The position numbers and the translations under genes are program-made. Of a DNA stretch of 33,305 nt, positions 3,390 to 25,171 are shown piece by piece. The stretch covers positions 1 through 33,305 of IMG/VR virus record IMGVR_UViG_3300049845_000617; one strand, 5' to 3'. A model generated the notes under the pieces. The model ran no database searches. It was given only the letters and a program-made list of their open reading frames with translations, and was not told the origin of the DNA. Within the stretch, counting starts at the first letter, position 1; the number at the start of each line of letters is the position of its first letter. The stretch comes from a virus.

Positions 3390-3983
3390 CTAGCGCGGGT
3401 TATGTCCCCAAATGAGGAGTGACAGCAGCTTTCGTGTTGGCTCGCCGTTCTCATCACGCAATGGCCCAGGATTTCCAAGCATCCGAGACACGAAGCTGAC
3501 CTGCTTACCGGCCCACTTCCACATCTCAGGCGTCCAGTCCTTGACAGGTGTCTTCTTCATCTTGGCGATCCACTCAGCACTCTGCACGCCTGAACTGATA
3601 CCGATCTTCTTGGCGGCCTGCGGCTTGAGACCTGGGTACTTCTTCGGGTCCTTGCGACCTGCCTTCGTCTGTTGCTGCTTGAACTTCTCAATGGACTCGG
3701 CCGACATGTTGATCAGCTCACGCCACTTCTTGTACAGCTCCTGACGGCGCTTTTGCTCACCCTCAGAGACCTCTTCGGTGATGCCAACTGGCAGCAGCTT
3801 GCCGTGCTTGCCACCGTACGCCGCGGCCTGCGCATGAACCATCTTGTGCAGCGCGTGCATGGCCTTCATGATCTCATCTGGCGTGTGCGGGCGGCCCTTT
3901 GGGAGGTCATCAAGCTTCTTGAACTTGACCTCTGGCTCGACGAAATCGAACGGGTTGCCCTCGCGCAGGTCTTGGAGCTTCAT
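3390..3983 (-). CDS. Unknown protein with capsid-targeting-like leader
   Basis: 197 residues, very rich in Lys and helical. It starts MKLQDLRE followed by G, which resembles the leader of T4 internal head proteins cut after L-x-E. The rest contains a helical segment around 36-60 (PDEIMKAMHALHKMVHA), a basic linker (QQQTKAGRKDPKKYPG) and a Trp-rich stretch (EWIAKMKKTPVKDW, EMWKWAG). The basic composition would suit binding to packaged DNA, but this is inference. The ATG overlaps the stop of the Dps-like gene as ATGA. I do not recognise an enzyme family. Confidence 0.75.
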   Translation of the reverse strand: MKLQDLREGNPFDFVEPEVKFKKLDDLPKGRPHTPDEIMKAMHALHKMVHAQAAAYGGKHGKLLPVGITEEVSEGEQKRRQELYKKWRELINMSAESIEKFKQQQTKAGRKDPKKYPGLKPQAAKKIGISSGVQSAEWIAKMKKTPVKDWTPEMWKWAGKQVSFVSRMLGNPGPLRDENGEPTRKLLSLLIWGHNPR

Positions 3984-4576
3984 ACGTAGATCACCCCGTA
4001 ATCGTCGAGGTCGTCGTACTCGGCCACTACCTGGCCAAGGCGCACGTAATAGCGCTTGGTGCCATCACGTTGGGGCTTCAGGCGACCAAAGTTCGCCTCA
4101 ACGGCTGCGCTGAAGTCGACCTTGCGCTGATCAAAAACCCGTGGCTTGCCACGTTCCTTGCTGTGTGCCTTCGGGAGCAGGTGCAGCGGTGTTGGCTTCT
4201 TAGCCTCAGTCAGGTTCTCGACCTTGTACTTGATCTTAGAAACGGCGGCTTGCAGCTCCTCGAACTTGTTCACGATGAAGCCATCCTGTGGGATGATCTC
4301 GTGCGCGAACTCGAGGTACGCGGTCAGCTGTCGAATGAACTCACCAACGTCTTCTTCGCTGAAGGGGTTTGGATCACTGAGTGGGATGTGCCCGTCAGTG
4401 CCGTACTTACCCATGTAGATCTCAGCGAGCTCGTCAAGGAAATCGCCAAGCCCATCGTACAGCTCGCCCAGCGCCAGGTGCAGCGACAGCGACCGAACTT
4501 TCCAATGCCACATATGTGCCACATTGCGGGCGATCAGCAAGTTGCCAAGGACAACGTCCATCGGGTTTGTTTTCAT
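3980..4576 (-). CDS. Dps/ferritin-like helical protein
   Basis: 198 residues. The N-terminal 120 resemble the Dps-like fold: ARNVAHMWHWKVRSLSLH then ALGELYDGLGDFLDELAE follows the Dps pattern of an early HW helix and a second helix with D-x-x-D/E. Dps proteins store iron or bind DNA; several putative metal-site residues are visible, but activity is not established. A site NLTEAKK (LTE at 122-124) would fit prohead protease cleavage and separates this domain from a basic C-terminal part ending in a beta-like YYVRLGQVV. ATGA overlaps join it to the genes on both sides. Confidence 0.6.
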   Translation of the reverse strand: MKTNPMDVVLGNLLIARNVAHMWHWKVRSLSLHLALGELYDGLGDFLDELAEIYMGKYGTDGHIPLSDPNPFSEEDVGEFIRQLTAYLEFAHEIIPQDGFIVNKFEELQAAVSKIKYKVENLTEAKKPTPLHLLPKAHSKERGKPRVFDQRKVDFSAAVEANFGRLKPQRDGTKRYYVRLGQVVAEYDDLDDYGVIYV

Positions 4577-5385: not shown

Positions 5386-5407
5386 CAAGCATCCTTGTCA
5401 ATCGCGC

Positions 5408-5413
5408 TATTTA
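5408..5413 (-). promoter_or_regulatory. T4-type late promoter (TAAATA)
   Basis: Minus strand GTCCTAAATAGCG, 22 bases before the ATG at 5385. The TAA of the motif is also the stop codon of the upstream gene (5411-5413). In T4, TATAAATA is read by the phage sigma factor gp55. Confidence 0.65.
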
Positions 5414-5938: not shown

Positions 5939-6080
5939 GTTGAATCCTTGAAGTGTCGCCGTCGCTTTGCTTCTGACCGATCGAGATCCCAAGCACTCCT
6001 AACTCGAGCTTCGGTGCCTTATCTGCGGCGACCGAACCCTTCTGAACTTGCTTGATCTTTCGAAGGTCGATGAGCTTCAT
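5907..6080 (-). CDS. Small basic protein, 57 residues
   Basis: Short gene starting MKLIDLRKIKQVQKG. The ATG at 6080 overlaps the stop of the upstream gene as ATGA, and the first seven residues closely resemble the leader of the gene at 3390-3983 (MKLQDLRE), though no L-x-E follows. It is rich in Lys and Gln and contains a short apolar LELGVLGISIG segment. The last 32 bases overlap the start region of the gene at 5411-5938. The position, coupling and N-terminal likeness support it; the function is unknown. Confidence 0.55.
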   Translation of the reverse strand: MKLIDLRKIKQVQKGSVAADKAPKLELGVLGISIGQKQSDGDTSRIQHASSSRPKVR

Positions 6081-6889
6081 GCGCCTGATCCACCACCGTC
6101 TCCGCCACCTTCACCACCGTCCCCAACCCCAACATCAGAGCTGGGAGCTGGCGCGCTAGCGACACCATACCCAAGGCCGCCCCACACGAACATCGTGCTG
6201 CCCTTGCCCTTTTTCTTCTTTGGTGTCAAGATCTTGAGGCCAAGTTTCTCGAGTCCCTCATTCGCGGTCTCAGCGCCCGGCATGATCGTGATTGTGCCTT
6301 GCTTCTTGACCATCTCCTTGCGACGCATGTTCATGCCGCTGAAGGTCCACTTAATCTTGAGTACGTCGTTTCGCAGACTTTCGACGTCGAAGTCCATCTC
6401 ATCCCAAGTTGACCCATGACCATCTGGTCCCGGACCGATCCAATCCTGGACCTGTGAAACCAGCTCGTGCAGGCCAAAGCCGGCGTGCGCCTTGTCGTCA
6501 ACAGGTGATGCGCCAACTGCCTTAGCAATTGCCTCGAGGGAGTCGGCATGCAGGTCGATGTCCTTCCAATCACCAGTGATTCCCTTCGAATCAACGCGCA
6601 CCTGATAAGGGTTCTTGGAGGCGGCCTCCATCATGAACTGCTTGAACGTCGGTTTCACGATTGCCTCGTTGAAGATCGTCAGATCAGCGCCGCACTCGTG
6701 CTTCATTGACCAGGTTGAGATGTCGCCGTCATCGTCACGACGAATGGTGAAATCACTGAGATTGAGCGGCTTGCGGCAGCCAGGGCAGCGGACATCCTGA
6801 TGCACTTTCTTCACATGCATCTCGATGTCAGACATGTCGGCGGTGAAGTACCCACCTTTGTGATTCATCCAACCTTCAGTGAGCTTCAT
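6077..6889 (-). CDS. Unknown protein with zinc ribbon and internal capsid-leader-like segment
   Basis: 270 residues. It begins MKLTEGW and then shows a probable zinc ribbon with CPGC at 35-38 and HEC at 64-66. At 82-89 the sequence FKQFMMEA closely matches the leader FKQFLSE that begins the amidoligase, here placed internally. A basic KKKKGKG stretch precedes an apolar GVASAPAPSS region and a Gly/Asp-rich tail. One reading is that a zinc-ribbon segment was fused in front of an older gene that began with the leader. It is coupled by short overlaps on both sides. The function is unknown. Confidence 0.7.
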   Translation of the reverse strand: MKLTEGWMNHKGGYFTADMSDIEMHVKKVHQDVRCPGCRKPLNLSDFTIRRDDDGDISTWSMKHECGADLTIFNEAIVKPTFKQFMMEAASKNPYQVRVDSKGITGDWKDIDLHADSLEAIAKAVGASPVDDKAHAGFGLHELVSQVQDWIGPGPDGHGSTWDEMDFDVESLRNDVLKIKWTFSGMNMRRKEMVKKQGTITIMPGAETANEGLEKLGLKILTPKKKKGKGSTMFVWGGLGYGVASAPAPSSDVGVGDGGEGGGDGGGSGA

Positions 6890-8463
6890 TTGCTGTCCTT
6901 GGGCTTGAGTTTCTTGCGCAGCGCATCCGCCTGTTCAGCACTGATCAACTTGCTGGTGTTCTGTTGCTGAGAGATCGCGCCCAGTGCGGACTTGATCTTC
7001 TCTTCGCGTGTCTTCTTGTGCACACGCGAGCGGATCAACCAGTCAGCCATGGCCTCAGCACTGATCTGCCCTTTGGCGTACTTTGCCCAACGACCTTCAG
7101 CATCGGCGGCACCGCTGTCATGCCACTTTTCTGACAGCTGCTCTTCGGCGGCGTACTTACGAGCGTACGCCTTCGCGTCAGGAGCGCCCTTTGAAAGATC
7201 AAAAGAGACCTCATTGTCAGGTACCCAGGCGCTCTTGCTACCATCAGAGAGCTTGATCTCGCGGTCGAGCTTGAAAGCACTGCCGCCGTTGAAGAACTGG
7301 ACCTTTTCGAGCTTGGCCACGCCATTCCTGGTCATGACCTTGACCTCTTTGCCGTCTCCAAGGGCCTTCATGTGCTTGTTTGGATGATTGACGAGAATCT
7401 CATCACCTGGTCCGTATACGTGCCGACGTCCCTCAACCACCAAGTTCTTTGGATTCAGGTAGTACTTGTACACCCAACCTTCGTTCTTCTTGTGATCGAA
7501 CTTGCCGCACACGCCCTCGAAGTCCTTGGCGACGCAGCGCGCAACCTCAAGACCGCGAGGGTCTCCATCGATCGATGACGTTGGTGGGATTGACTTCTTC
7601 CAGGCGGCATACGTGTCAACGCTGACACGCGAACCTAGGCTAGCCTCGATGATCAGTGACTCTTGCATGAGCACCTGACGATGCTTCAGCAGCTCAGCCT
7701 CAAGCTTCTTGATCTCCTTGGCCGCGCTCGAAGAGTGTCGGGCATTGAACTCAGCAGCCCCGATCATGTGCTCGAGGTACTTGATCATCTGCCTGTGGTA
7801 CCCCTTGACATTCCCTTCACGCTTCAGGAGCATAGCGTGCCGCTTCATTTCTGAGCCGGCACTTTCTGTCAGGGCTTCAGACACCAAGATCTTTGGGGCC
7901 CTGGTGATGTCCTCAGAGTCCTTAAGCGCATCTGCTGCGGCCTTTGCGTCTCGCTCGTTCTGCACGTACAGCACGCCGCTCTCAAACCAACCCGAGATGC
8001 CAGCGTCCTTGAGCACGTTCAGCACGGTTTTCTCGTACCCTTCATGTAGAGATTCCTGAACAACAGGCTCGAAGAACTTAGCACCGCTTTGGTCTGGGGG
8101 ATAAACAGCAGCAAACACACGATCGGCGTGCTTGAACACGCTGATCAGCCAACGACCAATCCCTGCCGACACAAAGTCGTGCTTGATCTCGCGTGCCACA
8201 TCAAGGACACGATCTGAGATGCTTGTTGCACGAACTTTTTCGGTAGACAACAGGTCTTGAACCTTTGTCATCACGTTTCGAGTCAGAACAGGCTCTTCCT
8301 GATCTTCGAACGCCCTGCCACGGTGCTTGAACTCACCGCGCTTGAGCTCCTGTTTCTTGTCGCGCATCGCACCGCCAGCGTTCTTCTTCGCCGCTAGAAT
8401 CGCGTGGTTTGGGTCGCGCGGCTTGAGAGCGCCGACCTTGAAGGTTAGATCCTTGACTTTCAT
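6886..8463 (-). CDS. Large basic protein with several candidate prohead-protease sites
   Basis: 525 residues, Lys-rich. The N-terminus MKVKDLTFKVGALKPRDPNH lacks an L-x-E leader, but four candidate sites lie inside: LVSE/A (193-196), ALTE/S (197-200), LMQE/S (265-268) and LIIE/A (270-273). The region between 200 and 268 is predicted to be a coiled helix (AAKEIKKLEAELLKHRQ). A later SH3-like stretch (RRHVYGPGDEILVNHPN) is visible. This layout would suit a polyprotein cut during head maturation, which is inference. No enzyme motif is recognised. It overlaps both neighbours by four bases. Confidence 0.7.
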   Translation of the reverse strand: MKVKDLTFKVGALKPRDPNHAILAAKKNAGGAMRDKKQELKRGEFKHRGRAFEDQEEPVLTRNVMTKVQDLLSTEKVRATSISDRVLDVAREIKHDFVSAGIGRWLISVFKHADRVFAAVYPPDQSGAKFFEPVVQESLHEGYEKTVLNVLKDAGISGWFESGVLYVQNERDAKAAADALKDSEDITRAPKILVSEALTESAGSEMKRHAMLLKREGNVKGYHRQMIKYLEHMIGAAEFNARHSSSAAKEIKKLEAELLKHRQVLMQESLIIEASLGSRVSVDTYAAWKKSIPPTSSIDGDPRGLEVARCVAKDFEGVCGKFDHKKNEGWVYKYYLNPKNLVVEGRRHVYGPGDEILVNHPNKHMKALGDGKEVKVMTRNGVAKLEKVQFFNGGSAFKLDREIKLSDGSKSAWVPDNEVSFDLSKGAPDAKAYARKYAAEEQLSEKWHDSGAADAEGRWAKYAKGQISAEAMADWLIRSRVHKKTREEKIKSALGAISQQQNTSKLISAEQADALRKKLKPKDSK

Positions 8464-9302
8464 TTCTTTGGCTCCGCCGAGATCACAATCCAGTTCTTCT
8501 CTTCAGTGGAAAAATCAAGCTGAACTCCTGGGTACCACTTCTCAATTTGGGCAATCAGGCGCTTGATCAGCTCACCATCCTCGCGTGACAGGCGCTGCCA
8601 GTCGTAGTCACCTGACCCATCATCTCCTTCCCAGGTACCCCAGTACCGAACCTCATGTGCGCGATGGCCCTCTTTAGGATCCACACGGCGCCACTCGGCA
8701 AAACGATCCTGCTTTTGCTGATCACGCATGCGTGAACGCAGGTCATCAACTGCGCTCTGTACCTTCTTCATGATCTCTGGCTCTGCTTCCTTGGTCTTCG
8801 CGGGAACAGACATCACCTTCTTGGGATCCTGACCTGACTTCAAGGCAGCGATCAACTGCTTTGAGGTCGCGGTCTTGGAGTACATTGTGATGGTTTCATA
8901 CCCATCACCAGTGCTGATGCCGAGATCAGCTGGCATGTCACGCAGCGACATCAAGTACGCCTTGATTGGGCCGTGGCCCTTACCAACGCCTGGCAGCTCA
9001 CTGCGCGGCACGAGAATTGATCCCTTGTACCCGAACCGAGAAAAGCTATCATCAAACTGATCAATGATCTTTGACTCTGGTTCTTTGTGATCGGGCGGAA
9101 CGGCGCTGAATGAACCACGCCCAACCTTCTGCGAGCGAATGTATGCCGGGATCAGGATGTCATGCTCTTTCGCCAGCGCCGCAATCTCAGGCCATTTCAG
9201 CGCCTTGACAGCATCTTTGCCGTACTTCTTAAGCGCGAGCTGGTAGAACTGCTCTGGAGTGGAGCGCTTCGCCATCTCGAGGAGAGCTTGCAATGTCTTC
9301 AT
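8460..9302 (-). CDS. Capsid-leader protein sharing a domain with the AAA+ ATPase
   Basis: 280 residues from the ATG at 9302, chosen because it overlaps the upstream stop (ATGA) and gives the leader MKTLQALLE; a GTG at 9320 is possible but less likely. The first 65 residues match residues 116-181 of the ATPase at 13749-15254, including W-x-x-I then a conserved LIPAYIR, QK and GRG. The remainder is unrelated to ATPases and has an HEVRYWGTWEGDDGSGDYDW segment and a final beta strand (NWIVISAEP). The function is unknown; the shared domain may bind a common partner. Confidence 0.75.
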   Translation of the reverse strand: MKTLQALLEMAKRSTPEQFYQLALKKYGKDAVKALKWPEIAALAKEHDILIPAYIRSQKVGRGSFSAVPPDHKEPESKIIDQFDDSFSRFGYKGSILVPRSELPGVGKGHGPIKAYLMSLRDMPADLGISTGDGYETITMYSKTATSKQLIAALKSGQDPKKVMSVPAKTKEAEPEIMKKVQSAVDDLRSRMRDQQKQDRFAEWRRVDPKEGHRAHEVRYWGTWEGDDGSGDYDWQRLSREDGELIKRLIAQIEKWYPGVQLDFSTEEKNWIVISAEPKK

Positions 9303-9856
9303 TTGTTCAGCGCCTGCCACGCGTAGAAGTTGTCAATGATGTCCTGCTCGGTCTTGTATGCGTTCACGCCCTGATTTGGAATGAGCCTGCCATCCGGAGT
9401 CTTCACGAACCGGAACCCTTTCTTCGGACCGTCAACGATCGTGTACCCTTTCGGGAGGGTCTTCATCCCAGTCCGAGCTTTGCTGAGCTTCGCGTTCCGT
9501 GAGGTCTCGTATTCATCCGTGGCCGCTTGCCAGTCCTTCATGGCCTTAGCAAGCGCATCCGTGCCGTGCTTGTTCAGGTACTTGAACACGAGCTTGATGG
9601 CCTCGTCATCGACCTGCGATGGGTTCTTGCCCTTCAGGTCAATGCTCTTGTCGTGCACGAACTCGCTCTCGGCGTTCACCGCCCTCGGGCGCAGCGCGAT
9701 CTTGACCTGCAAACCATATCCTGGGTTGAATGAGGCTTGTGAGACGATGTAGTACACCGTCTCACCCTTGAAAGAGACCTTGTTCCAGTCACCGGTGTCC
9801 TCATCGTCGCCCGGTGACCTGGCAAACTCGTTGAGCTTGATCTCCTTCAGAAGCAT
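9299..9856 (-). CDS. Unknown protein with capsid-leader-like start
   Basis: 185 residues. The ATG at 9856 follows GGGGA and lies one base after the preceding stop; it gives MLLKEIKLNE followed by F, a leader ending in L-x-E. The body has a beta-rich first half (ETVYYIVSQASFNPGYGLQV) and a helical, Lys-rich middle (LAKAMKDWQAATDEYETS), ending with a short region (GYTIVDGPKKGFRFV) that looks like a compact beta unit. I do not recognise a family. It is in a run of similarly tagged genes, which suggests a shared fate rather than a shared activity. Confidence 0.7.
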   Translation of the reverse strand: MLLKEIKLNEFARSPGDDEDTGDWNKVSFKGETVYYIVSQASFNPGYGLQVKIALRPRAVNAESEFVHDKSIDLKGKNPSQVDDEAIKLVFKYLNKHGTDALAKAMKDWQAATDEYETSRNAKLSKARTGMKTLPKGYTIVDGPKKGFRFVKTPDGRLIPNQGVNAYKTEQDIIDNFYAWQALNK

Positions 9857-9857
9857 G

Positions 9858-10688
9858 TCACATCCCCAGCGAGGCCAGGTGTCGATCAAGCGTACGAGCA
9901 GTCGTGCCCTCGTAGTCCTTGTCGTTGTCGGTGTCGCCAACGTGCAGGTGCTCCCAGTGCCCGTGCTTGGTGATCGTGATCTCACCGCAACCAGAGGTCT
10001 TATAGTACTTGCCGCTTGGCTGGCGCTTGAAGCCGTGCGCCTTAAGAACTGGCTCGTACTCCGCCTTGAAGCGAGAAGCCATGGCTTTTTCTTCTCCAGC
10101 TTCAGCGAGCGCCTCTTCAGAAAGCTTCTTCACCTTCTGAAATTTATACATGGTCAGTAGCACTGGGCGTGGGTCTTTATCCTCGCTAGGAGCTGCGTCT
10201 ACCACATAGCAATCGGCGTGATCGACATTTTCCTGTGGCACTTTTTGGAGGCCGCCAACCTTGTCGTATGCCATATACGCTTTCAGTCCGTCAGGAACTT
10301 TAGATCCCTTCTTCAAAACACGCACAATTCGTCCAACAAGCGGAGTCACGCTGTCGTCGATGAAGGAAATCTTGTCGCCAGCTTCAAACTTGGTTGCACC
10401 TTGAAAATCGGCAGCACTTTGACCACGACCCATCTCAGCGGCGTTCCGTGCGCGCTGCATGCGGTCTTTCGCTTCAAACAGCTCGCCCTTGGCGCCGTCC
10501 CACTCGCCAACCGCCTTGGTCTCACCGCGCTTGTACGGCTTTGGGCCGACCATTGCCTGCGCGATGTCCTCATCGCCCTCGATCCAAGCATCTGGGTGCT
10601 TCTTCTTGATGGCGGCCTTCCAGCTCTTGAAGGAGCTGTACTCACCTTTGGCCTCACGAAGTGACAGTAGTTCTTGCAGAATGCGCAT
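9858..10688 (-). CDS. Unknown two-domain protein with capsid-leader-like start
   Basis: 276 residues from the ATG at 10688, 24 bases downstream of a late promoter. It begins MRILQELLSLRE followed by A, containing two possible L-x-E cleavage sites. A helical/basic region (FKSWKAAIKKKHPDAW) is followed by an SH3-like beta unit (FEAGDKISFIDDSV, VGRIVRVLKKG), a helix, and a C-terminal domain with HGFKRQPSGKYYK and ITITKHGHWEHLHVGD that may be a small alpha/beta unit. It opens the cargo-like operon that runs down to 5411. No catalytic residues can be assigned. Confidence 0.7.
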   Translation of the reverse strand: MRILQELLSLREAKGEYSSFKSWKAAIKKKHPDAWIEGDEDIAQAMVGPKPYKRGETKAVGEWDGAKGELFEAKDRMQRARNAAEMGRGQSAADFQGATKFEAGDKISFIDDSVTPLVGRIVRVLKKGSKVPDGLKAYMAYDKVGGLQKVPQENVDHADCYVVDAAPSEDKDPRPVLLTMYKFQKVKKLSEEALAEAGEEKAMASRFKAEYEPVLKAHGFKRQPSGKYYKTSGCGEITITKHGHWEHLHVGDTDNDKDYEGTTARTLDRHLASLGM

Positions 10689-13190: not shown

Positions 13191-13649
13191 TCAATCCTTC
13201 TTCGTGATCGTGAAGTACGAGCGGTAATCGGAGGACTTGTGGTCGATCTCCTGCTTCCACTTTCCTCGAACCAATCGGTTTACTAGGCGTTGGTAGAGCT
13301 GAGCGCGGCTGCCTTCGCTCTTCTCGGCAGTGAACGACATCGAGTCAACGTCGTGTTGGTTCATGAACAACCTGGTGATCTCAATCACGGTGGCGAAGAC
13401 ACGGAACTCATCCCCAGATCCAGTCACTTTCAATGTCATACCCGTTGAATGCGCTGAACGCTCACCGAAGGCCATCTCCCAATGCGATCCTTTGCGTGGA
13501 ACACGGTCAATATCAACAACAATCTGCCGATCACCAGCATCGAACTTCGCTTGGTATGCGATCACCCCACGCTGGCCATCCTCGAGCTCACCCATTCGGG
13601 TCTCCTCAGTCCAGGTATAAGGGTCGTCAAGTAACTCAAGCAGAAGCAT
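13191..13649 (-). CDS. Conserved phage protein with MLLLELLDDPYTW start
   Basis: 152 residues from the ATG at 13649, 23 bases downstream of a late promoter. The start MLLLELLDDPYTWTEE and the later VFATVIEITRLF, SMSFTAEKSEGSRAQLYQRL pattern are familiar to me from phage proteins of unknown function in T4-like genomes. It looks like an alpha/beta domain of four strands and a long helix. L-L-E at 3-5 could be a capsid leader but the match is weaker than in its neighbours. There is no clear ribosome binding site; the leader is mostly a hairpin. Confidence 0.75.
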   Translation of the reverse strand: MLLLELLDDPYTWTEETRMGELEDGQRGVIAYQAKFDAGDRQIVVDIDRVPRKGSHWEMAFGERSAHSTGMTLKVTGSGDEFRVFATVIEITRLFMNQHDVDSMSFTAEKSEGSRAQLYQRLVNRLVRGKWKQEIDHKSSDYRSYFTITKKD

Positions 13650-13748: not shown

Positions 13749-15254
13749 TCACGCGTACTGGATCAGCTCTTTCCAGTTTGGCACGCCAGAACGAACGATG
13801 TCCAGCCCCTTTGTGAACTCGCGCATCGTGACCGCGGTGATCTCCTTGCGACCATGCATCACAAGCAGGTGATCAAGCAGCTCTTCCTTGCGCTCGATTG
13901 AAACGTCGTCGCCACCAAGAGATGGCAGGATCTTGCGCATGCGCTGCAGGATCTGGGCTGGCGTTAGGTCCATGTTGATCTTGGCCGAACGCGACAGAAT
14001 GGCGGTGTCGAACTCTTCCTTCTTCAGGTTCGAGATGAAGATCACACGACCAGTGAAGTCAAACGACGATGGGTACCGAACCTTCGAAGGATCAGAGCTG
14101 ATCTGGTCGTCGATGGTCTTGAAGAACGCCTCTCGCTCATCATCATCCATCTTTGACACGTTCACGGTGTTCGATGAAACCCAAGAGATTTCACGAACAG
14201 GTGACGTGTCAAGCGCGGCCTTGAGCACGTTCGTGGCGTCTTGGTTGCCCCACATGCTATCCAGGTCATCAAAGATCACTAAACCACCGTCACGGAACAT
14301 GAACAGCGTCTTGTAGATCTCAGCCGGGGTGGCCTTGCCTGACAGCTTCTGGTAATCCTTGCCCTTCGTGAGGCCCATCTGTTGGACGGTCTTCATGATG
14401 GTGTACGTCTTGCCGGTACCTGGACCACCGTAGATCAGCAGCGAGCGCAGCGTGCCTTTACAAGCCATCTCAACGAGCTGTGACATGTGTCCGTACAGCG
14501 TCTCTGGGTCCTTGACCTCAGCCTCGGTTGGACCGGCTTTCAACGCGCCTTGGAGCTGTGAGTACAGCTGTTGTGCTTGCTTGCTGTCACCAGCAGGAAT
14601 GAAGCGCTTGGTCTCTGGGTCCTGTGCTGTGACCTTGATGTACAGGATCGGGTCTTTCTTGCCGCTCTTTTCAACAGGCTTTTCGCCTTCATCTCCACCT
14701 GATACCGCGCCAGGCTCGGCGTTCCATTTTCCGCGTCCAGTCTTCTGACCGCGGATATACGCTGGGATCAGCACATCGTTCTTATCGGCAACGGTCTTGA
14801 TCTGTGCCCAAGTGACGTCGCGGGCTCCGGCCTCGCCGTACTCGTCGACCATCATCTTGAAGAACGAGTCATCGCCAACGCGCTTTGCCATCTCATCGAG
14901 CTGCAAAGATTCGTTGATGGCCTTGACCTCGATCTTGCCCTCTTCTGGGCTCTTGATCAGGCGCGCAATCTCCTTCATCGCGCCAAGCAACGTACCGGCG
15001 TTCAACGCGAACTTGTCCCAAACATCAATTGCATGTACGTGCCCGGCTTTGACTCGGACCTGCAGCGCGCGATCACCAAAAAAGTACGTGTACGCGTCGA
15101 ATCCCGCGACCTTGTTCACGTGTCCAGGACCACCGTCTCGGTAGAGTTTGGCACCAAGCAACTTGGGCAGCCTACGTTCGAAAGCTGAGAGTACTCGAGC
15201 GAAATCATCTTCGCTGAACTTGGCTTCGACCAGGAAGTTTTTGAAGGAGAGCAT
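13749..15254 (-). CDS. AAA+ ATPase with capsid-targeting-like leader
   Basis: 501 residues. The leader MLSFKNFLVE followed by A resembles T4's MKTYQEFIAE. Residues 11-110 form an unrecognised alpha/beta domain; 116-181 match the start of the protein at 8460-9302 (LIPAYIR, QK, GRG); from about 250 there is a AAA+ module with Walker A GGPGTGKT (276-283), Walker B LVIFDDLD (325-332), a sensor-like FISNLK and ILSRSAKI. It should hydrolyse ATP and remodel a protein or nucleic acid, as a ring. A late promoter lies 27 bases upstream. An ATPase carried in the head would be unusual; that is inference. Confidence 0.88.
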   Translation of the reverse strand: MLSFKNFLVEAKFSEDDFARVLSAFERRLPKLLGAKLYRDGGPGHVNKVAGFDAYTYFFGDRALQVRVKAGHVHAIDVWDKFALNAGTLLGAMKEIARLIKSPEEGKIEVKAINESLQLDEMAKRVGDDSFFKMMVDEYGEAGARDVTWAQIKTVADKNDVLIPAYIRGQKTGRGKWNAEPGAVSGGDEGEKPVEKSGKKDPILYIKVTAQDPETKRFIPAGDSKQAQQLYSQLQGALKAGPTEAEVKDPETLYGHMSQLVEMACKGTLRSLLIYGGPGTGKTYTIMKTVQQMGLTKGKDYQKLSGKATPAEIYKTLFMFRDGGLVIFDDLDSMWGNQDATNVLKAALDTSPVREISWVSSNTVNVSKMDDDEREAFFKTIDDQISSDPSKVRYPSSFDFTGRVIFISNLKKEEFDTAILSRSAKINMDLTPAQILQRMRKILPSLGGDDVSIERKEELLDHLLVMHGRKEITAVTMREFTKGLDIVRSGVPNWKELIQYA

Positions 15255-15926: not shown

Positions 15927-15954
15927 GCTCAATCTCCTTGTGTGAGCTTCAAAG

Positions 15955-15960
15955 TATTTA
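15955..15960 (-). promoter_or_regulatory. T4-type late promoter (TAAATA) for gp19
   Basis: Minus strand GGTGTAAATACTTTG, 28 bases before the gp19 ATG. The homing endonuclease start I chose (16022) leaves this element outside its coding region. Confidence 0.65.
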
Positions 15961-15992
15961 CACCGCTGACCCAAAATCGATGCAAATTGGTT

Positions 15993-16001
15993 TGCTAGAT
16001 A
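15993..16001 (+). promoter_or_regulatory. Possible extended -10 promoter for the endonuclease gene
   Basis: TGCTAGATA lies about 20 bases before the ATG at 16022, fitting TGnTATAAT in most positions. No -35 is seen. This is a weak call. Confidence 0.3.
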
Positions 16002-16021
16002 AAGAACAATTGAGAAGAGAC

Positions 16022-17596
16022 ATGAAGCCAACCACCCTTGAAGAGTACCTTGCGCTGGACTTGAAGAACAACCACTTCAGGTACATGGAGCAGTCAATCA
16101 AAGATCTGCTAGTGGAGCGCACCCCAAATTGCCATGGTGATCTAGTCGAACGGGCATTCTGGCTCCAGAACGGGCTTAAGGACTACCCTACGTGCAAACG
16201 TTGTGGGACAAAGCTCTCATCTAGAAATTGGTACCCGTCTGTCACACAAAAGCAGCGCGACAGAGGATGGCCGCAGAAGGGGTATCGACCATTCTGCGGC
16301 CGTGTTTGCGCTATGAATGATGAAGCCAAACACCAACGCGTGCGTGACACGTGCATTGATCGCTATGGCGTGCCGCACGCCCTACAGTCCAACCTGGTCC
16401 AGGCTAAAAGAAAGCTCACTAACCTGGAAAGGTATGGTGCCGCTAATCCAATGGCTTGGAGTTCAGAGCGTTTCAAGAACACCATAAGGTCGCTGTACGA
16501 TGTCGTCGCTGTGCGACACATTGATGGTGTTTCAGACAAAATTCGTCAAACCAAACAAACACAGGAGCTCTTAGTACGCCGGGTTAAGGAACTTGAGCAG
16601 CTGTTTGAAGTTCAGGTAATGTCAGCCCCGCCATCTGATGTGTTCAGACTGCACGATGTCGAGCTTAGATGGAAACACACCTGTGGCCATGAGTACACAT
16701 CGAATATCACATCGCGTGGACTAAGATTCTGCCCACGGTGCTCAAATGGCACATCAAGGGCCGAGTCAGAGCTGGGTGATTGGATTGAGGGTCTTGGATT
16801 TCGTGTGCTAAGGCGAAATCGTGAGTTTGGGTTTGAGCTTGACTTGTATCTGCCGGATCTTAAGCTTGGCATTGAATATGATGGGACGTACTGGCATTCC
16901 GCGAGATTCGTTTCTCAAGAAAAATCAATGCAGAAGCTTGAGTGGGCCGAAGCTGCCGGAGTGCGGCTGATCACCCTACAAGAACATCTTTGGGTGAACG
17001 CCAAGGACCTAGTCAAAGCCCGCCTGTCGTCGGTGCTTGGTTTGAATCAACGTGTCATGGGGCGGCGCTGTTCAGTCCAAAAGCTAGACGCGGGCAGCAG
17101 CAATGATTTCTTCATGCGCTCGCACCTACAAGGTGCGGCTCGGGCGAGCATCAGCTATGGTCTGATTCTCAACGACGAGCTCATTGCTGCTATGTCATTC
17201 GGCCCATCCCGATTTCTAAAGAGCGCCGACTGGGAGCTCATTAGATTTGCGTCGGCCCCTGGAGTGAATGTTCAGGGCGGCGCTGGAAGGCTGCTGAAGG
17301 CGTTTAGGGCCGAGCACAAGGGATCTATCGTGAGCTATGCTGATCGCTGCTGGAGCACTGGAAACCTGTACAAACGACTTGGCTTCAGGTTCATCAGGAA
17401 CTCGAAACCTTCGTACTTTTGGGTGTCAGGTCAACACGTGTTTACCAGGTACCAAACACAGAAAGGGAAGCTTGAGAAGCTTCTAAACGAGATCGGAGAA
17501 GAATTTCATCCAGCTTTTAGCGAAGAGGACAACATGCTGAACGCAAGATTCCTCAAGGTCTATGATCGAGGAAATTTGGTGTGGTTGCTGGATTAG
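16022..17596 (+). CDS. Free-standing homing endonuclease (EDxHD/Vsr-like)
   Basis: 524 residues on the opposite strand to its neighbours. Zinc-binding pairs appear at 58/61, 92/96 and 221/237/240. Repeated RYGVPHA and RYGAANP units resemble DNA-reading modules. The nuclease core runs SRAESELGDWIE, a FELDLYLPDL strand (D274) and GIEYDGTYWHS (E285, H292), as in the EDxHD group related to Vsr. A C-terminal domain (about 350-500) containing SYADRCWSTGNLYKRLGF is familiar from phage endonucleases. I prefer the ATG at 16022, with GAGAAGAG before it, over a TTG at 15938 that would cover the gp19 promoter. Its stop overlaps the next stop by two bases. It probably spreads the gene by cutting unoccupied sites. 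Confidence 0.85.
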   Translation: MKPTTLEEYLALDLKNNHFRYMEQSIKDLLVERTPNCHGDLVERAFWLQNGLKDYPTCKRCGTKLSSRNWYPSVTQKQRDRGWPQKGYRPFCGRVCAMNDEAKHQRVRDTCIDRYGVPHALQSNLVQAKRKLTNLERYGAANPMAWSSERFKNTIRSLYDVVAVRHIDGVSDKIRQTKQTQELLVRRVKELEQLFEVQVMSAPPSDVFRLHDVELRWKHTCGHEYTSNITSRGLRFCPRCSNGTSRAESELGDWIEGLGFRVLRRNREFGFELDLYLPDLKLGIEYDGTYWHSARFVSQEKSMQKLEWAEAAGVRLITLQEHLWVNAKDLVKARLSSVLGLNQRVMGRRCSVQKLDAGSSNDFFMRSHLQGAARASISYGLILNDELIAAMSFGPSRFLKSADWELIRFASAPGVNVQGGAGRLLKAFRAEHKGSIVSYADRCWSTGNLYKRLGFRFIRNSKPSYFWVSGQHVFTRYQTQKGKLEKLLNEIGEEFHPAFSEEDNMLNARFLKVYDRGNLVWLLD

Positions 17597-17985
17597 CGGG
17601 CAATTTCAGTCCAGGGGTCGCCAGCCTTGTATCCACTCATCTTGATCCAGCGATAAGGCAGCTCGTCGATGGTGCGTACCTTGGTTTGACGATTGTCAAG
17701 GATGTAGCCTTCGGCTTCGAGCACTAGGTGCCCATCGCCATTCTCGTCGGCGCACAGCACCAGACGATTTGGCACGTTCTGTTCCCAGAGCAGATGACGG
17801 CACGTCAACACGAAGTCATCGCAGTCACCGACCAGACGGCCATTTTCAAGTGCGGCCTTGATCATCGCTGGGTCATGCCAGTGCTCAATCAGGCCGTGCT
17901 GTTCTTTGTCGGTCTTGTACTCGAAGATCTTGAACACGCGTGCATGAACACGCTGTACGATCTTGACCTGTTCTTCAGTCAGCAT
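17593..17985 (-). CDS. Transglutaminase-like cysteine peptidase
   Basis: 130 residues with the transglutaminase-like triad: Cys55 in GDCDDFV, His86 in GDGHLVLE and Asp97 in YILDNRQ. The layout (VGDCDDFVLTCRHLL, NRLVLCADENGDGHLV) fits the short bacterial and phage cysteine peptidase group. Such enzymes cleave or rearrange peptide and amide bonds; the substrate here is not known. It may process virion or host-envelope proteins. The ATG at 17985 overlaps the lipoprotein stop by seven bases, so it is read from the gp18 promoter. Confidence 0.8.
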   Translation of the reverse strand: MLTEEQVKIVQRVHARVFKIFEYKTDKEQHGLIEHWHDPAMIKAALENGRLVGDCDDFVLTCRHLLWEQNVPNRLVLCADENGDGHLVLEAEGYILDNRQTKVRTIDELPYRWIKMSGYKAGDPWTEIAR

Positions 17986-20025: not shown

Positions 20026-20033
20026 GGACAGAT

Positions 20034-20052
20034 CAAAAAGTTCGTCCAACTT
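20034..20052 (-). terminator. Weak hairpin with U-run behind the amidoligase
   Basis: On the minus strand AAGTT and AACTT pair around GGACG and are followed by TTTG. The stem is only five bases, so the call is tentative; it lies between the amidoligase stop and the gp18 promoter. Confidence 0.35.
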
Positions 20053-20063
20053 CAAACGCACTT

Positions 20064-21587
20064 TCAGAGCAGCTTCAGGGCCTTGAGCGCCATTCGAACC
20101 AGCTGCCTCGGGGTGCCGGCCTTTGTTTCTTGCTCAATTTGCTCGGGTTCGAGTTTCAGGTTTCGAATCAGCGATCGCATGTCCTTACGATCCTGGAACT
20201 TCAACTCAATCCGCTCGTCATCGAGACGCTGCCCGAGATCAATCAACACAGCACGAGCAGCCACCAACGCATCAGCGCTGCCTGGTTCCGCATTCTGTAC
20301 CTGGTCGTACAGCATACGGTAGTCCTTCTTGAGGACCATCAGGTACGTGAGCTCTTGGTTCTGCTTCTTTTCCTTGGCCATTGGAATCAGCTCAAGGAGC
20401 TTCACCACCTTCTTGAGGTACTCTTTGCGTTCCATGTCTGGATTGCACGCGATCTCCAGTGCGGTAAGCCAGCGACCAACCACCTCCTTGAGGTCCTCGA
20501 AGCGCTTGTGATACCCAGCGCCACCAGCAGCGCGGAACTCTAGGTACTTCGGTGCCGGGAACTTCAGGTTCACGGAGTAGTACTTGCCCGTTTCCTTCAG
20601 CGCGCGCTGGCCGAAGGCAATGATGTCCTTGGCGGCCTTTGGGATCTCACCACGGTCGGTGATACCGTCGATGACGGTTTGGAGCTGTGATCGGGTGTAC
20701 GTGTTTGCTTCACGCTCGAACTTTTCCAGCACGTACTTGTCGCCCATGAACAGCACCAGTTTCAGGGCATCTAGCTTCTCAAGACCAGGCATTGAGATGT
20801 TGACGTGCAGGCCAGTGCTCTCGTTAGTGCGCATCTCGGCCTTGTCAAGCCAGCGCAGCAGCTTCTCAAGGGTGCCAATGGCCTCATCAGCTGGCAGTGG
20901 TGGCGACACGATCTCAAAGCCATAGCCCTTCATGCCAGATTCGTAATCGCTTCCGTCATCATCAAGGATAGATGAATCGTGCGTGATGTTCCAGTGCGCG
21001 TACCCGTGAGCGTTGACCTTAACGACCTCTGACAGCTCGCGGCTGAGGTGCTGTCGAAGAACCTCAGCGCTGGCCTTCCAACCACCCATATAGTTCACGT
21101 TTCCTGGAGCTGACTTGAAGATCGCGGTGTTGGTTGCCCAGCCGTACTTGGCCTCGAGCTCGTACGCGTCGATGAACCTCTGGCCGGTCTTGAACGCCGC
21201 TGCGAACCAGTCTGACCAGTCGTACCGTGGTGCCTTCTTCTCGGCCTTGCGACGCCCAGCCGCCTCATCATCGTCGAAGTCCATCCAGTTCTGCTCGACG
21301 TACTGGTCTTGCTTCTCGCTTAGCCAATCGGCGTAGTCACGCTCAATCTCACGTGCCTGAGGGCTGTTGATGATGAAGTACTCTCCGAACTGCGCGTACG
21401 TGTCGAGCTGGTTGACCTCGATACTTGGAGGCTCGTCATCCGCTGCCGTCCAGAAATCAGAACCCTCAGGGCACAGGACCTCGATCTCAAAACCGACCTT
21501 GGCGTCATCACCTAGGCGCTTGAAGACCGACGCGTACCCGCGCTGGTTCATGCGGCGCTCTGACAGGAACTGCTTGAAGGAGATCAT
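20064..21587 (-). CDS. Amidoligase with capsid-targeting-like leader
   Basis: 507 residues. The leader MISFKQFLSE followed by R mimics T4's MKTYQEFIAE. The body fits the glutamine-synthetase-like amidoligase fold: VGFEIEVL (E34, E36), an HWNITHDSS strand (D204), GYGFEIVSPPLP (E225), TGLHVNISMPG (H261, N263) and a late KYLEFRAAGG. Known members join carboxyl and amine groups using ATP. The partner here is unknown. The helical end (about 400-507) may be a binding arm. It is the last gene in the gp13-gp15 operon and overlaps gp15 as ATGA. The GNAT two genes upstream may share its substrate. Confidence 0.82.
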   Translation of the reverse strand: MISFKQFLSERRMNQRGYASVFKRLGDDAKVGFEIEVLCPEGSDFWTAADDEPPSIEVNQLDTYAQFGEYFIINSPQAREIERDYADWLSEKQDQYVEQNWMDFDDDEAAGRRKAEKKAPRYDWSDWFAAAFKTGQRFIDAYELEAKYGWATNTAIFKSAPGNVNYMGGWKASAEVLRQHLSRELSEVVKVNAHGYAHWNITHDSSILDDDGSDYESGMKGYGFEIVSPPLPADEAIGTLEKLLRWLDKAEMRTNESTGLHVNISMPGLEKLDALKLVLFMGDKYVLEKFEREANTYTRSQLQTVIDGITDRGEIPKAAKDIIAFGQRALKETGKYYSVNLKFPAPKYLEFRAAGGAGYHKRFEDLKEVVGRWLTALEIACNPDMERKEYLKKVVKLLELIPMAKEKKQNQELTYLMVLKKDYRMLYDQVQNAEPGSADALVAARAVLIDLGQRLDDERIELKFQDRKDMRSLIRNLKLEPEQIEQETKAGTPRQLVRMALKALKLL

Positions 21588-22522
21588 AGCGGTGCAGGTG
21601 GGAATGGCTCATCGCCACGTGTCGGTGGCGTGAACTGGCTGAACTCGACCCAGTTAACGCCATTCCAGCGTAGGGCCTTGCCAAGCGCTTCTCGCCACCA
21701 GGTTTCATCGACCTGTGGGTTGGGTGGCACCGTGTTCCCGGTGTATGTGCAATCAGTCTCGGTGAGAACTGGCTGTGGGTTCGTGTCGAACTCGATGCGA
21801 GCAACTGGGGTGCCAAACGGCGTGATGTTCCCGTCCTCATCAACCTCAAGCACGGTCTGAGGACCGCCAGTGGCGATCTGCAGGATGATCTTGCGCACCA
21901 AGTCGTCCTTGATACCCATTGGGGTGCTCAAGAAGATTGGCAGCTCAAATGTCAGCGTCCACGTCAGGATCCGTCGATCGGTGGCGGCTGGATAGTTTTC
22001 CTCGTTCGCGATGTCAGTGAGCTCGACTTTCGTGATCTTTGTCCAGTCAAACGGGGCATCTGACTTCTGGATCTGCAGGTCGGGGTTGAACAGAATCAAG
22101 ATCTGCTCAAGGATCTGATGCAGCTGATACACGTTCGAGGCGTAGATCGTGAGCTCCATCGTCATGTTGTAAGGGATCGGCATGGCGCGCTTGACCACCG
22201 TCAGGTCGTCAGGAAACACCCCACCGGTCTTCATTGTGACTCGATGATCAACGTACGCTTGAACCTTCCGACGCTCAGGGGCTAGGGTCAGGCTTTGCAT
22301 GTGCACGGCCATGGTTGGCAGTGAGAACATGCGGTTCTGTGTGTTCCCGGCGAAGAGCGCCGCCACCACGCGGTCCTTTGAACCGACAACGCAAGGGACA
22401 CTGATGAACTGCTCTTCATCGCACTCGCCCTTTCCGGTCTGCACCTGCAGGCCCTGAAAGATCGAGATGAACTGCATGATGTACGACCGAAGCTGGGCAT
22501 CAAAGAAGTACTGTCGAATCAT
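21584..22522 (-). CDS. 15: Tail sheath stabiliser / completion protein (T4 gp15-like)
   Basis: 312 residues. In T4, gp15 caps the tube and sheath and joins tail to head. Matching features are YFFDAQLRSYIMQFISIFQG, then the FISVPCVVGSKDRVV strand, then IPYNMTMELTIYASN, LEQILILFNPDLQ and a RRILTWTLTFELPIFL strand. The last 45 residues are an extra short unit (WWREALGKALRWNGVNW) of a kind that also occurs in gp13 and the protein at 28878-29741. It overlaps the GNAT gene by four bases and is followed by the amidoligase. Confidence 0.85.
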   Translation of the reverse strand: MIRQYFFDAQLRSYIMQFISIFQGLQVQTGKGECDEEQFISVPCVVGSKDRVVAALFAGNTQNRMFSLPTMAVHMQSLTLAPERRKVQAYVDHRVTMKTGGVFPDDLTVVKRAMPIPYNMTMELTIYASNVYQLHQILEQILILFNPDLQIQKSDAPFDWTKITKVELTDIANEENYPAATDRRILTWTLTFELPIFLSTPMGIKDDLVRKIILQIATGGPQTVLEVDEDGNITPFGTPVARIEFDTNPQPVLTETDCTYTGNTVPPNPQVDETWWREALGKALRWNGVNWVEFSQFTPPTRGDEPFPPAPL

Positions 22523-22872
22523 CTGGTGCTCCAGCCATCAATGTCATCGGTAAGATCTGGTATGTAGCCACCAATCGAGCGCGCAAAGGCATCACCTTCC
22601 TTGGAGCGGCGGCTTGAGTGCTCTGGGTGAGCGGCGCCGTGCTTCTCAGCCCGCTCAACAGCGAGCTCCCACAAGTGTGTGCCTAGTCCTTGTCGACGGT
22701 ACGGTTTTCCAACAAAGACCTTCTCGATCTCTCCAGTGCTCTTGTCCCACTCAATGTACCCAACAGCGCCTGCGCTGTTGAACAGGTCGATTCGGTGCAG
22801 GTCCTCAGTCTCAGAGTACTTGTCCTTGAGTGAATCCCAGTCAAAGCCCTCAAACAGGTCAGCTAGCTTCAT
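22519..22872 (-). CDS. GNAT-family acetyltransferase with capsid-leader-like start
   Basis: 117 residues. MKLADLFE followed by G is a candidate capsid leader. The GNAT core is visible as AGAVGYIEWDKSTGEIEKVFV then the acetyl-CoA loop RRQGLGTHLWELAVERAEKHG (RRQGLG at 59-64). The C-terminal strand is a conserved-looking SSRRSKEGDAFARSIGG. GNATs transfer an acyl group from acyl-CoA to an amine; substrate unknown. The gene sits between gp14-like and gp15, coupled to both by start/stop overlaps. A short N-terminal part means it may be a minimal GNAT. Confidence 0.8.
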   Translation of the reverse strand: MKLADLFEGFDWDSLKDKYSETEDLHRIDLFNSAGAVGYIEWDKSTGEIEKVFVGKPYRRQGLGTHLWELAVERAEKHGAAHPEHSSRRSKEGDAFARSIGGYIPDLTDDIDGWSTR

Positions 22873-24731
22873 CAGCGAACCCCCTTGGATGACAGCGGAA
22901 CGACCTTAGGCTGGTTGAAGATCTCGCGCTGAGACGGCTTGTGCGAGCTGCGCTCGTCTCTCCTGTCCGTTTCCACGTAGACCCACTTGTTCTTGGCCGA
23001 GCTGAACTTGTACAGACGAGCTGGAATCTTGAGCTTCGGGTCGTAGTTCAGACGGTAGTACGCACCATCAAGCTGGCCAGCCACGTCTGGCAGCTTGTAC
23101 CCCTCTTCGTACGGCAGGCCGTCTGGCGGCAGACCGTCTTCAACGTACAAACCGGTTCCATCATAGGTGCCTGGCTCGTTGAAGCGATTCATGCCAGAGG
23201 CCTGTTCAAGGATATTTGCGCCCTGCTCTGGAACCGCCTTACGTGCCTCCTCGTTCGTTGCCTCAGTAGCGGTCAGCGGACCGGTTTGGATCTGTTGGAT
23301 ACCTTCGAAGAACGAACCGTCATCCACCACGTACTTCTGCGTGTCAACGGTACCGAGCAGATCACGGTGCTCTTGCGATGGGATGAGCTGCGACGCTTGG
23401 AAGCGGAAGATGATCGGACGCCAGTTCGTGGTGAAGCCTTCAGCTGACCAGCTGGTGTCCGAGACCTCAAGGAACTTGCGAACTGGCCGCAGGTTGTGGT
23501 CGTACTGCGTCTCGCTTGGAATCTCCAGCACATCACCAACGACAACTGGACGTCCAAGTGCCTTCACCATGGAGGCAAAAGACACCGTGAAGTTGTACAC
23601 ATCAGCGACCTGGAAGCCGAACTTGCTCAGGTCAGACAGCGCGTCAAACGGTTGGTACGCTGCCTTGAGGCTGATCGACTGGTTCGCGTAATCACGATCA
23701 CGGTTCTCAAGGAAGACCGGATCCTGTACGTCATCGAGGCGCGTGCTCTGCCAATCGAAGAGCTCCAGGCTCTGCAGCTCCCATGGTTGATCTGTCGTCA
23801 CACCAGAAAACGATGTCGGCACGATGCGCCAGAACCGAGATGGGCTGGACTGCTTTAGGCGAATCAGGTTTGGTTGGCCGTCATCAGGCACGTTGACGAC
23901 ATCGACACGATACCAGTCCATGTCGATTGGGATCGAGAACATGTCGCCGGCTGAGAAGGGCACGGTGCCGGCCAGGATCGTGAATGCCGCGTACTTGGAC
24001 AGGTACCGCTGGCCGACCGTTACGGTGCCTAGGACCTCCGTGGTGTCGCCGGTGAAGAACGCCGTGAACGATGTAGGCGATACAGCAGACAGCATGATGG
24101 TGCCACGGCGGGCCTCCGGTGTCGCCGAGGGCGTGCCGATTGTTCCATTGCCCGTTCCCGTGTACAGGATCTTTGTCGGATCGATTCGGAAGCCACCGTT
24201 CGAGCGCTCAACACGGAGCTGCAAGGCCCGGCGACCGGCCACCGGCTGAACAAGCCGGATGGACGTGATGTGATGCGTGTTCGGTTGGCTTGGACCGTAC
24301 GCTGTCGCTCCGTACGAGGTCTTAGTGATGCCAAAGTCGTACCCAACCCAGGCTGGATCGGTCAGCACGGCCAAACCGGTCTGCGGGCTGACCCACGCGC
24401 TGGCCAAGCCGTCAAAGACGTCGGCAGAGCCGTTCATTGGCTCGCCTTCACCAACCAGATCAACAAGTCGACCCTGCTCATGGACACCAAGCAACTTGAA
24501 CACGTTCACGGTGGCACCTGAGATGTTCAAGGCCGCAGCGGCGATCTGTTCTTGGTATGAGTCGTCGCCGTTGTTGGAAAGATCCCATTCGCCTGTGCAC
24601 AGCTCAGGTGGCACGTACACGCTTGGAGGTGCTGGCGTTGCCCCGATTCCTGAAGACAGATTGTCCTCATTGTTCGGGTTGTTTAGCGACCCTGCACCGT
24701 CTGGGCAGGTCGTGATTGGAAGAGTTGCCAT
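22872..24731 (-). CDS. 14: Probable neck protein (gp14-like) with discoidin-like and repeat domains
   Basis: 619 residues from the ATG at 24731. Residues 44-190 and 271-330 look like the two halves of a discoidin-like beta sandwich (PAWVGYDFG, RFWRIVPTSF, WELQSLELFD); between them at 191-269 lies the same module seen twice in gp18 (AFTILAGTVPFSAGDMFSI). From about 360 the sequence (FGFQVADVYNFTVSF, VVVGDVLEIPSE, WRPIIFRF) resembles T4 gp14, a neck protein that completes the head-tail joint. Position between gp13 and gp15 matches T4 order. Discoidin folds often bind sugars, so host or decoration contact is possible. Confidence 0.7.
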   Translation of the reverse strand: MATLPITTCPDGAGSLNNPNNEDNLSSGIGATPAPPSVYVPPELCTGEWDLSNNGDDSYQEQIAAAALNISGATVNVFKLLGVHEQGRLVDLVGEGEPMNGSADVFDGLASAWVSPQTGLAVLTDPAWVGYDFGITKTSYGATAYGPSQPNTHHITSIRLVQPVAGRRALQLRVERSNGGFRIDPTKILYTGTGNGTIGTPSATPEARRGTIMLSAVSPTSFTAFFTGDTTEVLGTVTVGQRYLSKYAAFTILAGTVPFSAGDMFSIPIDMDWYRVDVVNVPDDGQPNLIRLKQSSPSRFWRIVPTSFSGVTTDQPWELQSLELFDWQSTRLDDVQDPVFLENRDRDYANQSISLKAAYQPFDALSDLSKFGFQVADVYNFTVSFASMVKALGRPVVVGDVLEIPSETQYDHNLRPVRKFLEVSDTSWSAEGFTTNWRPIIFRFQASQLIPSQEHRDLLGTVDTQKYVVDDGSFFEGIQQIQTGPLTATEATNEEARKAVPEQGANILEQASGMNRFNEPGTYDGTGLYVEDGLPPDGLPYEEGYKLPDVAGQLDGAYYRLNYDPKLKIPARLYKFSSAKNKWVYVETDRRDERSSHKPSQREIFNQPKVVPLSSKGVR

Positions 24732-25171
24732 CAGTAAATCGTGCGCCCAAGGCGCTTGTTGATGTTGATGCCGTACTGACTGGCTCGTTCGCCAACTGCT
24801 GATGACGCGGCAGATACCATCATCGGCCAAAAATCAACGCTGTCATCAGTACGACCACCGACGAGTACGTTCTCCATGTCCACGCTCTCGTCGAACAGGT
24901 ACGCGTTGCGACCAAGCTCGGCCTCGATCTCTTCTACCTCAGCTTGCAGCTTACGGTACTCCTCACGAGCTGCATTCGCCCAAGCAAGCACTTCCTTGTT
25001 CACCGCCTGGACAAGGGCGTACTTTGCATCATCGTCGAAGGCCTCATCCTCGGCCTTGTACAGATCAGCGCGCTTGATCTTGCCATCGCTCTCTTTGATC
25101 TCCTTGACCTTAGCAGCGATCTCTTTCTTCTGAGCCGCGGTGAACGATTCGAACAGTTGGTGGAGCTTCAT
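24731..25171 (-). CDS. Small helical protein with capsid-leader-like start
   Basis: 146 residues. I use the ATG at 25171 because AAGGAC lies six bases upstream and it yields MKLHQLFE followed by S; the frame is open further upstream but overlaps gp13. The rest is helical and acidic (AAQKKEIAAKVKEIKESDG, EYRKLQAEVEEIEAELG), probably a coiled coil, followed by a short C-terminal end (NINKRLGRTIY). The leader nearly equals the GNAT's MKLADLFE, two genes away. I do not recognise an activity. It overlaps gp14-like gene as TGATG. Confidence 0.75.
   Translation of the reverse strand: MKLHQLFESFTAAQKKEIAAKVKEIKESDGKIKRADLYKAEDEAFDDDAKYALVQAVNKEVLAWANAAREEYRKLQAEVEEIEAELGRNAYLFDESVDMENVLVGGRTDDSVDFWPMMVSAASSAVGERASQYGININKRLGRTIY

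Follow-up and report, generated by a model that had tools for sequence, protein, structure and literature searches.

The window analysed here is the whole of virus record IMGVR_UViG_3300049845_000617 (33,305 bases), a fragment of a jumbo myovirus genome. Ten of its genes, all on the minus strand between positions 3390 and 25171, encode proteins that begin with a short leader resembling the capsid-targeting sequence (CTS) of phage T4. The first-pass annotation had listed these ten genes and had described each as carrying a short L-x-E leader, followed in most cases by A, G or S. The genes and their starts were found as given there, every leader ends in [LIM]-x-E within residues 5–12, and A, G or S comes next in six of the ten. 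The start codons of genes 8460–9302 (MKTLQALLE) and 24731–25171 (MKLHQLFE) fall inside the longest open reading frame. Genes are referred to below by their lower coordinate, and a slash marks the predicted cut.

The strongest leaders were those of six genes. The AAA+ gene (13749–15254) starts MLSFKNFLVE/A (15225–15254), and [FY]LxE-type leaders were present on all ten full-length orthologues. The amidoligase gene (20064–21587; PF12224, E 1e-13) starts MISFKQFLSE/R (21558–21587), the GNAT gene (22519–22872; PF00583, E 1e-9) starts MKLADLFE/G (22849–22872), and gene 24731–25171, with a body that has no Pfam match, starts MKLHQLFE/S (25148–25171). The leader of gene 9858–10688 is MRILQELLSLRE/A (10653–10688), and the orthologue in genome G004 starts MSTILELLQLTE/A. 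Gene 8460–9302 joins MKTLQALLE/M (9276–9302) to a body termed the MAKR module; for its counterpart in genome G003 (26141), upstream in-frame sequence gives MKLIQTLLE/MAKR.

Gene 3390–3983, which has a DUF6321-like C-terminal end, starts MKLQDLRE/G (3960–3983). The start of gene 6077–6889, MKLTE/G (6875–6889), is weak and short and possibly part of the body, because the related L097 protein keeps it as MKITEGWMNH. Gene 9299–9856, for whose body homologue searches found none, has a weak leader that would be cut after E5 (MLLKE/I) or E10 (MLLKEIKLNE/F; 9827–9856). The weak leader of gene 13191–13649, MLLLE/LLDD (13635–13649), depends on translation starting at the ATG at 13649, and its LxE may belong to the body, a DUF6934 protein (PF22028) whose predicted model (predicted local distance difference test, pLDDT, 72) resembles GNAT enzymes (Z 8.7). 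Three internal sites of similar form had been overlooked in the first-pass annotation: FKQFMME/A in gene 6077 (6626–6646), SLIIE/ASLGSRV in gene 6886–8463 (7645–7659) and ESLQLDE/MAKR in gene 13749 (14892–14912), the last at the start of the MAKR module that this gene has in common with gene 8460.

When residues 2–15 were shuffled, [LIM]xE with the glutamate at positions 5–14 was expected in a mean of 5.5 of the 40 window genes; it was observed in 15 (P=0.0002). About ten window genes thus stand above chance expectation, and any one weak case could be due to chance.

The window terminase was nearest to those of the jumbo phages CM1, RAS14, XacN1, Atu_ph07 and PA5oct (37–39% identity), and sheath searches returned many close environmental relatives, several above 290 kb. 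Megablast of the whole window against phage records gave no match. Genomes G003 (336 kb), G004 (343 kb), G006 (350 kb), G009 (311 kb), XacN1, PA5oct and T4 and parts of others were used for comparison, with genes called by one script in all of them.

Targeting of T4 internal protein III (IPIII) is governed by its residues 4 and 7 and processing by residues 8 and 10, and cutting is blocked when position 10 is Asp (PMC9026906). Two leader classes were defined, class A as a pattern in this register (F4, F7, L8 and E10 retained) and class B as MK[LIV]..L[LF]E. The IPIII-register positions are present in the class A leaders of genes 13749 and 20064; the aromatic register is absent from the class B leaders of genes 22519 and 24731 and from the Leu-rich starts of genes 8460, 9299, 9858 and 13191. 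Class A leaders numbered two in the window (0.05 expected by shuffling) and 11, 6, 3 and 2 in G006, G009, G003 and G004 (0.5–0.6 expected), and class B leaders two in the window and 24, 16, 11 and 5 in G004, G006, G003 and G009 (<1 expected). As a control, pattern A was matched by two of 235 T4 proteins of at least 60 residues, both starting MKTYQEFIAE, which we take to be IPII and IPIII. Class B resembles T4 starts of the form MELITELFDE, presumably that of Alt. A CTS-like start, MKTFKEFIKE/D, was also seen on the hypothetical 54-residue T4 protein gp61.1 (NC_000866, 18966–19130), which lies below the 60-residue cut-off.

Swapping the final residue of pattern A among 2,607 clade proteins gave 103 matches with E, 14 with A, 8 with D and 4 with Q (0–14 with any residue other than Glu), and pattern B gave 92 matches with E versus 24 with D. 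Glu, not Asp, is favoured at the predicted cut. The leader codons are variable and the upstream DNA is not common among the tagged genes, so selection acts on the peptide itself. A DNA-level origin of the common start, such as a promoter or a recombination site, was discarded on the same grounds.

Comparison of the leaders of orthologues, which the first-pass annotation had suggested, revealed that different leaders are joined to orthologous bodies exactly at the predicted bond. Among 19 amidoligase orthologues (mean identity 33%) the motif was present in 18, and in all 19 once the G003 start was corrected (MITFKQFLSE/). The amidoligase body carries both leader classes, which switch exactly at the predicted scissile bond, as seen in MKIQYLFE/KAMNQSIY (L023), MKLDVLFE/RSMSAKT (G004), MITFKQFLAE/KAMNRGSY (L012) and MISFKQFLSE/KAMNASEF (L041). 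Outside the clade, leaderless homologues of the AAA+ and amidoligase domains were found, namely T4 NrdC.10, PA5oct gp126 and Atu_ph07 gp221 and gp196. The 195 class A or B proteins fell into 89 body clusters, 70 of which are singletons, and both leader classes occurred in six of the 19 multi-member clusters. The predicted tag of gene 3390 is optional: leader-like starts were found on the orthologues in L037 (MKVSELFE/A) and L045 (MKVAELFD, with Asp at the end), and the orthologues in G004 (which starts M/GNPFDF), G007, G003, G001 and G009 have no leader. A fusion in L043 (15850–17124) joins the 3390 module to a segment resembling, by eye, a Nudix motif.

The earlier statement that the bodies are unrelated is partly wrong: genes 8460 and 13749 share a homologous module (E 6e-12). 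The shared MAKR module makes up the body of gene 8460, lies inside gene 13749 and is found again in the 787-residue L097 protein, a fusion of the modules of window genes 6886 and 8460. [LIVM]xE directly preceded the MAKR module in 13 of 13 distinct instances, many of them orthologous, with about five independent contexts, and the motif might also belong to the domain itself. Another module, ASLGSRV, comes after SLIIE/ in window gene 6886 and after SVVTE/ in the L097 fusion; in L091 it stands as a separate gene after MKVSELFE/. The second half of gene 6077, which follows FKQFMME/A in the window, comes after its own leader in G009, where it is homologous to a separate gene (213929, ..KGRLTE/AEKTGYQIKVDS). 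Module borders and predicted cut sites thus fall together, the arrangement to be expected if a polyprotein were cut up within the head. Internal sites were enriched in gene 6886 and in two large proteins of relatives (p=0.025, 0.014 and 0.0015) and not in genes 8460, 13749 or 20064; enrichment is not general, and the polyprotein idea therefore rests on the module joints and not on site counts.

A gp21-type S77 prohead protease (Peptidase_S77) and a Gp23 capsid protein were found in all ten near-complete or isolated relatives searched. Ten capsid proteins, from relatives and other jumbo phages, were aligned to T4 gp23, and in each the T4 site FLTE/A (E65) fell on [LIM]xE/[TN], as in KYLTE/TA of G003, QYMME/TA of G009 and RFLVE/NA of PA5oct. 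The window leaders KNFLVE/A and KQFLSE/R and the internal site KQFMME/A have the same form as these capsid sites. Head-cluster genes adjoining the protease have similar starts.

The tagged genes are interspersed in a T4-like structural block that runs from terminase to neck (1242–27068, minus strand). Within it, all on the minus strand, are the genes for the terminase large subunit, TerL (1242–2783), head closure (11187), tail tube (11687 and 15333), sheath (18119), sheath stabiliser (21584), neck (22872) and head-tail adaptor Ad2 (25197). In the terminase-to-neck block of nine relatives, the tag was found on 36 of 113 variable genes versus 10 of 100 conserved genes (p=8e-5). The ten tagged conserved genes encode only amidoligase or AAA+ proteins, and no terminase, tube, sheath or neck gene, nor any other of the structural core genes named above, was tagged in any relative. 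Near-complete clade genomes have 11–27 strict class A or B leaders each, and genome-wide these are concentrated in lineage-specific genes (22 of 205 versus 5 of 238 in G006).

A Pfam scan of the ten window proteins gave at most one enzymatic domain each, the cargo domains being amidoligase, GNAT, AAA+ and DUF6934. In relatives, leaders precede ADP-ribosyltransferase (ART) domains of the ART-PolyVal family (E 5e-9), zeta-toxin/AAA_33 (E 3e-12), HD plus AAA_33, and a GH19 chitinase. Near the window amidoligase gene, positions 17593–17985 (minus strand) encode a bacterial transglutaminase-like cysteine proteinase (Peptidase_C93, E 3e-17) that has no leader; with the amidoligase it forms a possible pair breaking and making amide bonds.

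The relatives also have a tandem family, termed YRG (MITFKQFLxE...DCxxFL...RG), whose copies can number seven or more at one locus and whose leader residues F4, K5 and E10 are invariant at about 31% identity. In a model of this family leader residues 1–10 had a mean pLDDT of 55 and the body one of about 92. The best structural match of the body was 2aua (Z 6.9), followed mostly by ART-type enzymes (Z 2.5–3.6); Foldseek gave no match below E 0.3, and searching PDB sequences with a profile likewise yielded no significant match. The modelled body is weakly ART-like, a parallel to T4 Alt, which is a packaged and injected ART (PMC5512222). Tandem arrays of tagged genes, mostly of one RG-motif paralogous family, were noted in L019 (354–5617), L031 (1202–8727) and L022 (1616–9905).

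From these sequence comparisons we consider it highly probable that the leaders serve as T4-type capsid-targeting propeptides. The short N-terminal peptide would bind the internal core and draw its protein into the assembling prohead, and the S77 (gp21-type) protease would cut after [LIM]-x-Glu, freeing the body inside the head. At the same sites in fused proteins, one polypeptide could be cut into several packaged modules. The bodies would then probably leave the head together with the DNA and exert their effect on the host soon after infection begins. The first-pass annotation had read the common start as an address tag, and this reading is well supported by the Glu specificity, the IPIII register, the capsid-site form, the S77 protease in 10/10 relatives, the leader swaps at the predicted bond and the exclusion of tail, neck and terminase core genes. 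Entry of the tagged proteins into the prohead is the best explanation of the leaders; targeting, cleavage and packaging are likely, and injection, argued by analogy with the T4 internal proteins and Alt, is less certain. The label of an 'arsenal' given to the tagged proteins is plausible, because relatives tag ADP-ribosyltransferase-like, zeta-toxin-like kinase, GNAT and chitinase domains. A broader proposal, about as likely as not, is that the capsid-targeting peptide is a general exchangeable cargo label, such that an accessory gene gaining the peptide is packaged and joined genes give polyproteins cut into injected effectors.

Virion evidence came from the PA5oct record, in which 93 proteins are marked as found by electrospray ionisation tandem mass spectrometry (ESI-MS/MS). 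These include gp135, a homologue of window gene 13191, and gp281, which holds the body module of gene 9858. The LxE motif followed by A, G or S, taken with a wider hydrophobic set, was found on 9 of 90 MS-positive versus 4 of 190 other PA5oct proteins (p=0.006), and we regard this as modest support for packaging. Several points weigh on the other side. The virion data are those of PA5oct and not of the window phage; the strict class A and B set in PA5oct is too small for a virion association; only one of four variants requiring A, G or S was significant there, whereas the LI-only form gave p=0.12; and the plain motif was not enriched (22/90 virion versus 52/190 other proteins), so that generic LxE failed as a predictor of virion proteins. 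The protease and capsid genes are absent from the 33-kb window fragment, the calls on genes 6077, 9299 and 13191 are weak when taken singly, and most orthologues of gene 3390 in relatives are untagged. Patterns A and B were also partly refined after the relatives had been inspected, and it was to counter bias from this refinement that the residue-substitution and T4 controls were included.

The alternative that survives best accepts that the peptide targets the prohead and gives the cargo a role in head assembly or DNA condensation, as core or scaffold, in place of injected effectors. It draws on the similar starts of the genes adjoining the protease and on T4 core proteins, which are also cut at such sites (PMC5694885). 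We consider it unlikely, though deserving of weight, since enzyme bodies such as GNAT, amidoligase, AAA+, ART-PolyVal and zeta-toxin kinase, and the restriction of the tag to lineage-specific genes, better fit host-directed cargo.

Much less probable is the explanation that the starts are alike by chance and composition, as common amphipathic N-terminal helices or as sequences that favour translation (MK plus Leu and Glu). In its favour, five unlisted window genes match loosely as well, chance alone would give 5.5 matches in the window, and generic LxE was not enriched in PA5oct virion proteins. However, the signal is lost when the last residue is swapped, three leader residues are invariant in the diverged YRG family, the modelled leader is of low confidence where the body is not, and leaders are exchanged at one exact bond.

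Common descent of the tagged genes, as diverged paralogues with one inherited start, is very improbable. Some families are clearly paralogous, as seen in the 46 tagged proteins of one cluster, the G004 series and the common MAKR module, but the tag is spread over the 89 body clusters and their 70 singletons, bodies are of different folds (AAA+, amidoligase, GNAT, ART-PolyVal, zeta toxin, GH19), and orthologues have different leaders or none. Equally hard to credit is that the peptide is an address for some other compartment or complex of the phage (tail or replication site), cut or not by another protease, for although the tagged genes sit among tail and neck genes, the latter are themselves untagged and the motif is that of the capsid-protein maturation site.

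As a system of predicted capsid-targeting propeptides, the leaders resemble the CTS of T4 (IPI-III, Alt) with gp21, an 8–12-residue N-terminal propeptide that ends in hydrophobic-x-Glu, and the S77 protease and Gp23 are present in the relatives. Class A matches MKTYQEFIAE at both the targeting and the processing positions, and class B resembles the Alt start. T4 has a handful of tagged proteins, whereas the clade has 11–27 strict leaders per genome over its 89 body clusters, exchanges leader classes on one body and appears to use the same sites as joints in fused proteins. The AAA+ domain of gene 13749 is homologous to T4 NrdC.10, but unlike the leaderless homologues of T4, PA5oct and Atu_ph07 it shares its polypeptide with a leader, an N-terminal domain and the MAKR module. 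The ejection proteins of the phiKZ/SPN3US type are similar in that many proteins are packaged and that a prohead protease cleaves head proteins after Glu, a cut which is predicted here. Propeptides of the phiKZ/SPN3US type are mostly longer than 100 residues with the motif A/S-x-E (PMC5694885), whereas the present leaders have 5–12 residues and end in [LIM]-x-E. Polyvalent proteins and virion-packaged ARTs, described by Iyer and co-workers, share with the present cargo predicted injected host-modifying domains (ART, kinases) and late or head neighbourhoods (PMC5512222, PMC9503650). The case for those was built on their multidomain architecture and genomic surroundings; here a peptide tag would mark single-domain cargo, and the fused forms have predicted cut sites between modules. 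Judged on sequence features, the system is a modular version, on a large scale, of the capsid-targeting sequence known from T4, and its scale, the swapping of leaders at the predicted bond and the sites that act as joints in fused cargo appear new within the searchable literature.

Few of the proteins that phages inject with their DNA have been identified, since they are detected singly by mass spectrometry or surmised from the surrounding genes. With a tag legible in the sequence, carried proteins can be predicted genome-wide, here the 195 proteins in 89 body clusters, among them ADP-ribosyltransferase-like, kinase/zeta-toxin-like, GNAT, amidoligase and AAA+ proteins. If the reading of the leaders as capsid-targeting propeptides is true, these proteins are candidates for early effectors and for anti-defence functions. 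It would also explain quick cargo gain by jumbo phages and would offer short peptides with which proteins could be directed into phage heads. Under the broader proposal of a general cargo label, the whole injected arsenal of a phage, perhaps 10–30 proteins, could be read from its genome.

Other features were noted in the window and its relatives. A homing endonuclease gene (15938–17596; phrog_3339, E 4e-93) lies on the opposite, plus strand between the sheath and tube genes. On the minus strand, an acyl-carrier-like protein (PF00550, E 4e-10), whose sequence includes a site for phosphopantetheine attachment, is encoded at 30795–31076, and Thg1, a tRNA-His guanylyltransferase (E 4e-28), at 31479–32318, in a phage late region. 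An alpha/beta hydrolase gene (2776–3363, minus strand) adjoins the terminase gene and is kept in relatives. Several relatives have, beside terL, a further gene with homology to the N-terminal half of TerL, as in G003 (132514–133230), G006 (338584–339366) and G007 (41454–42197).

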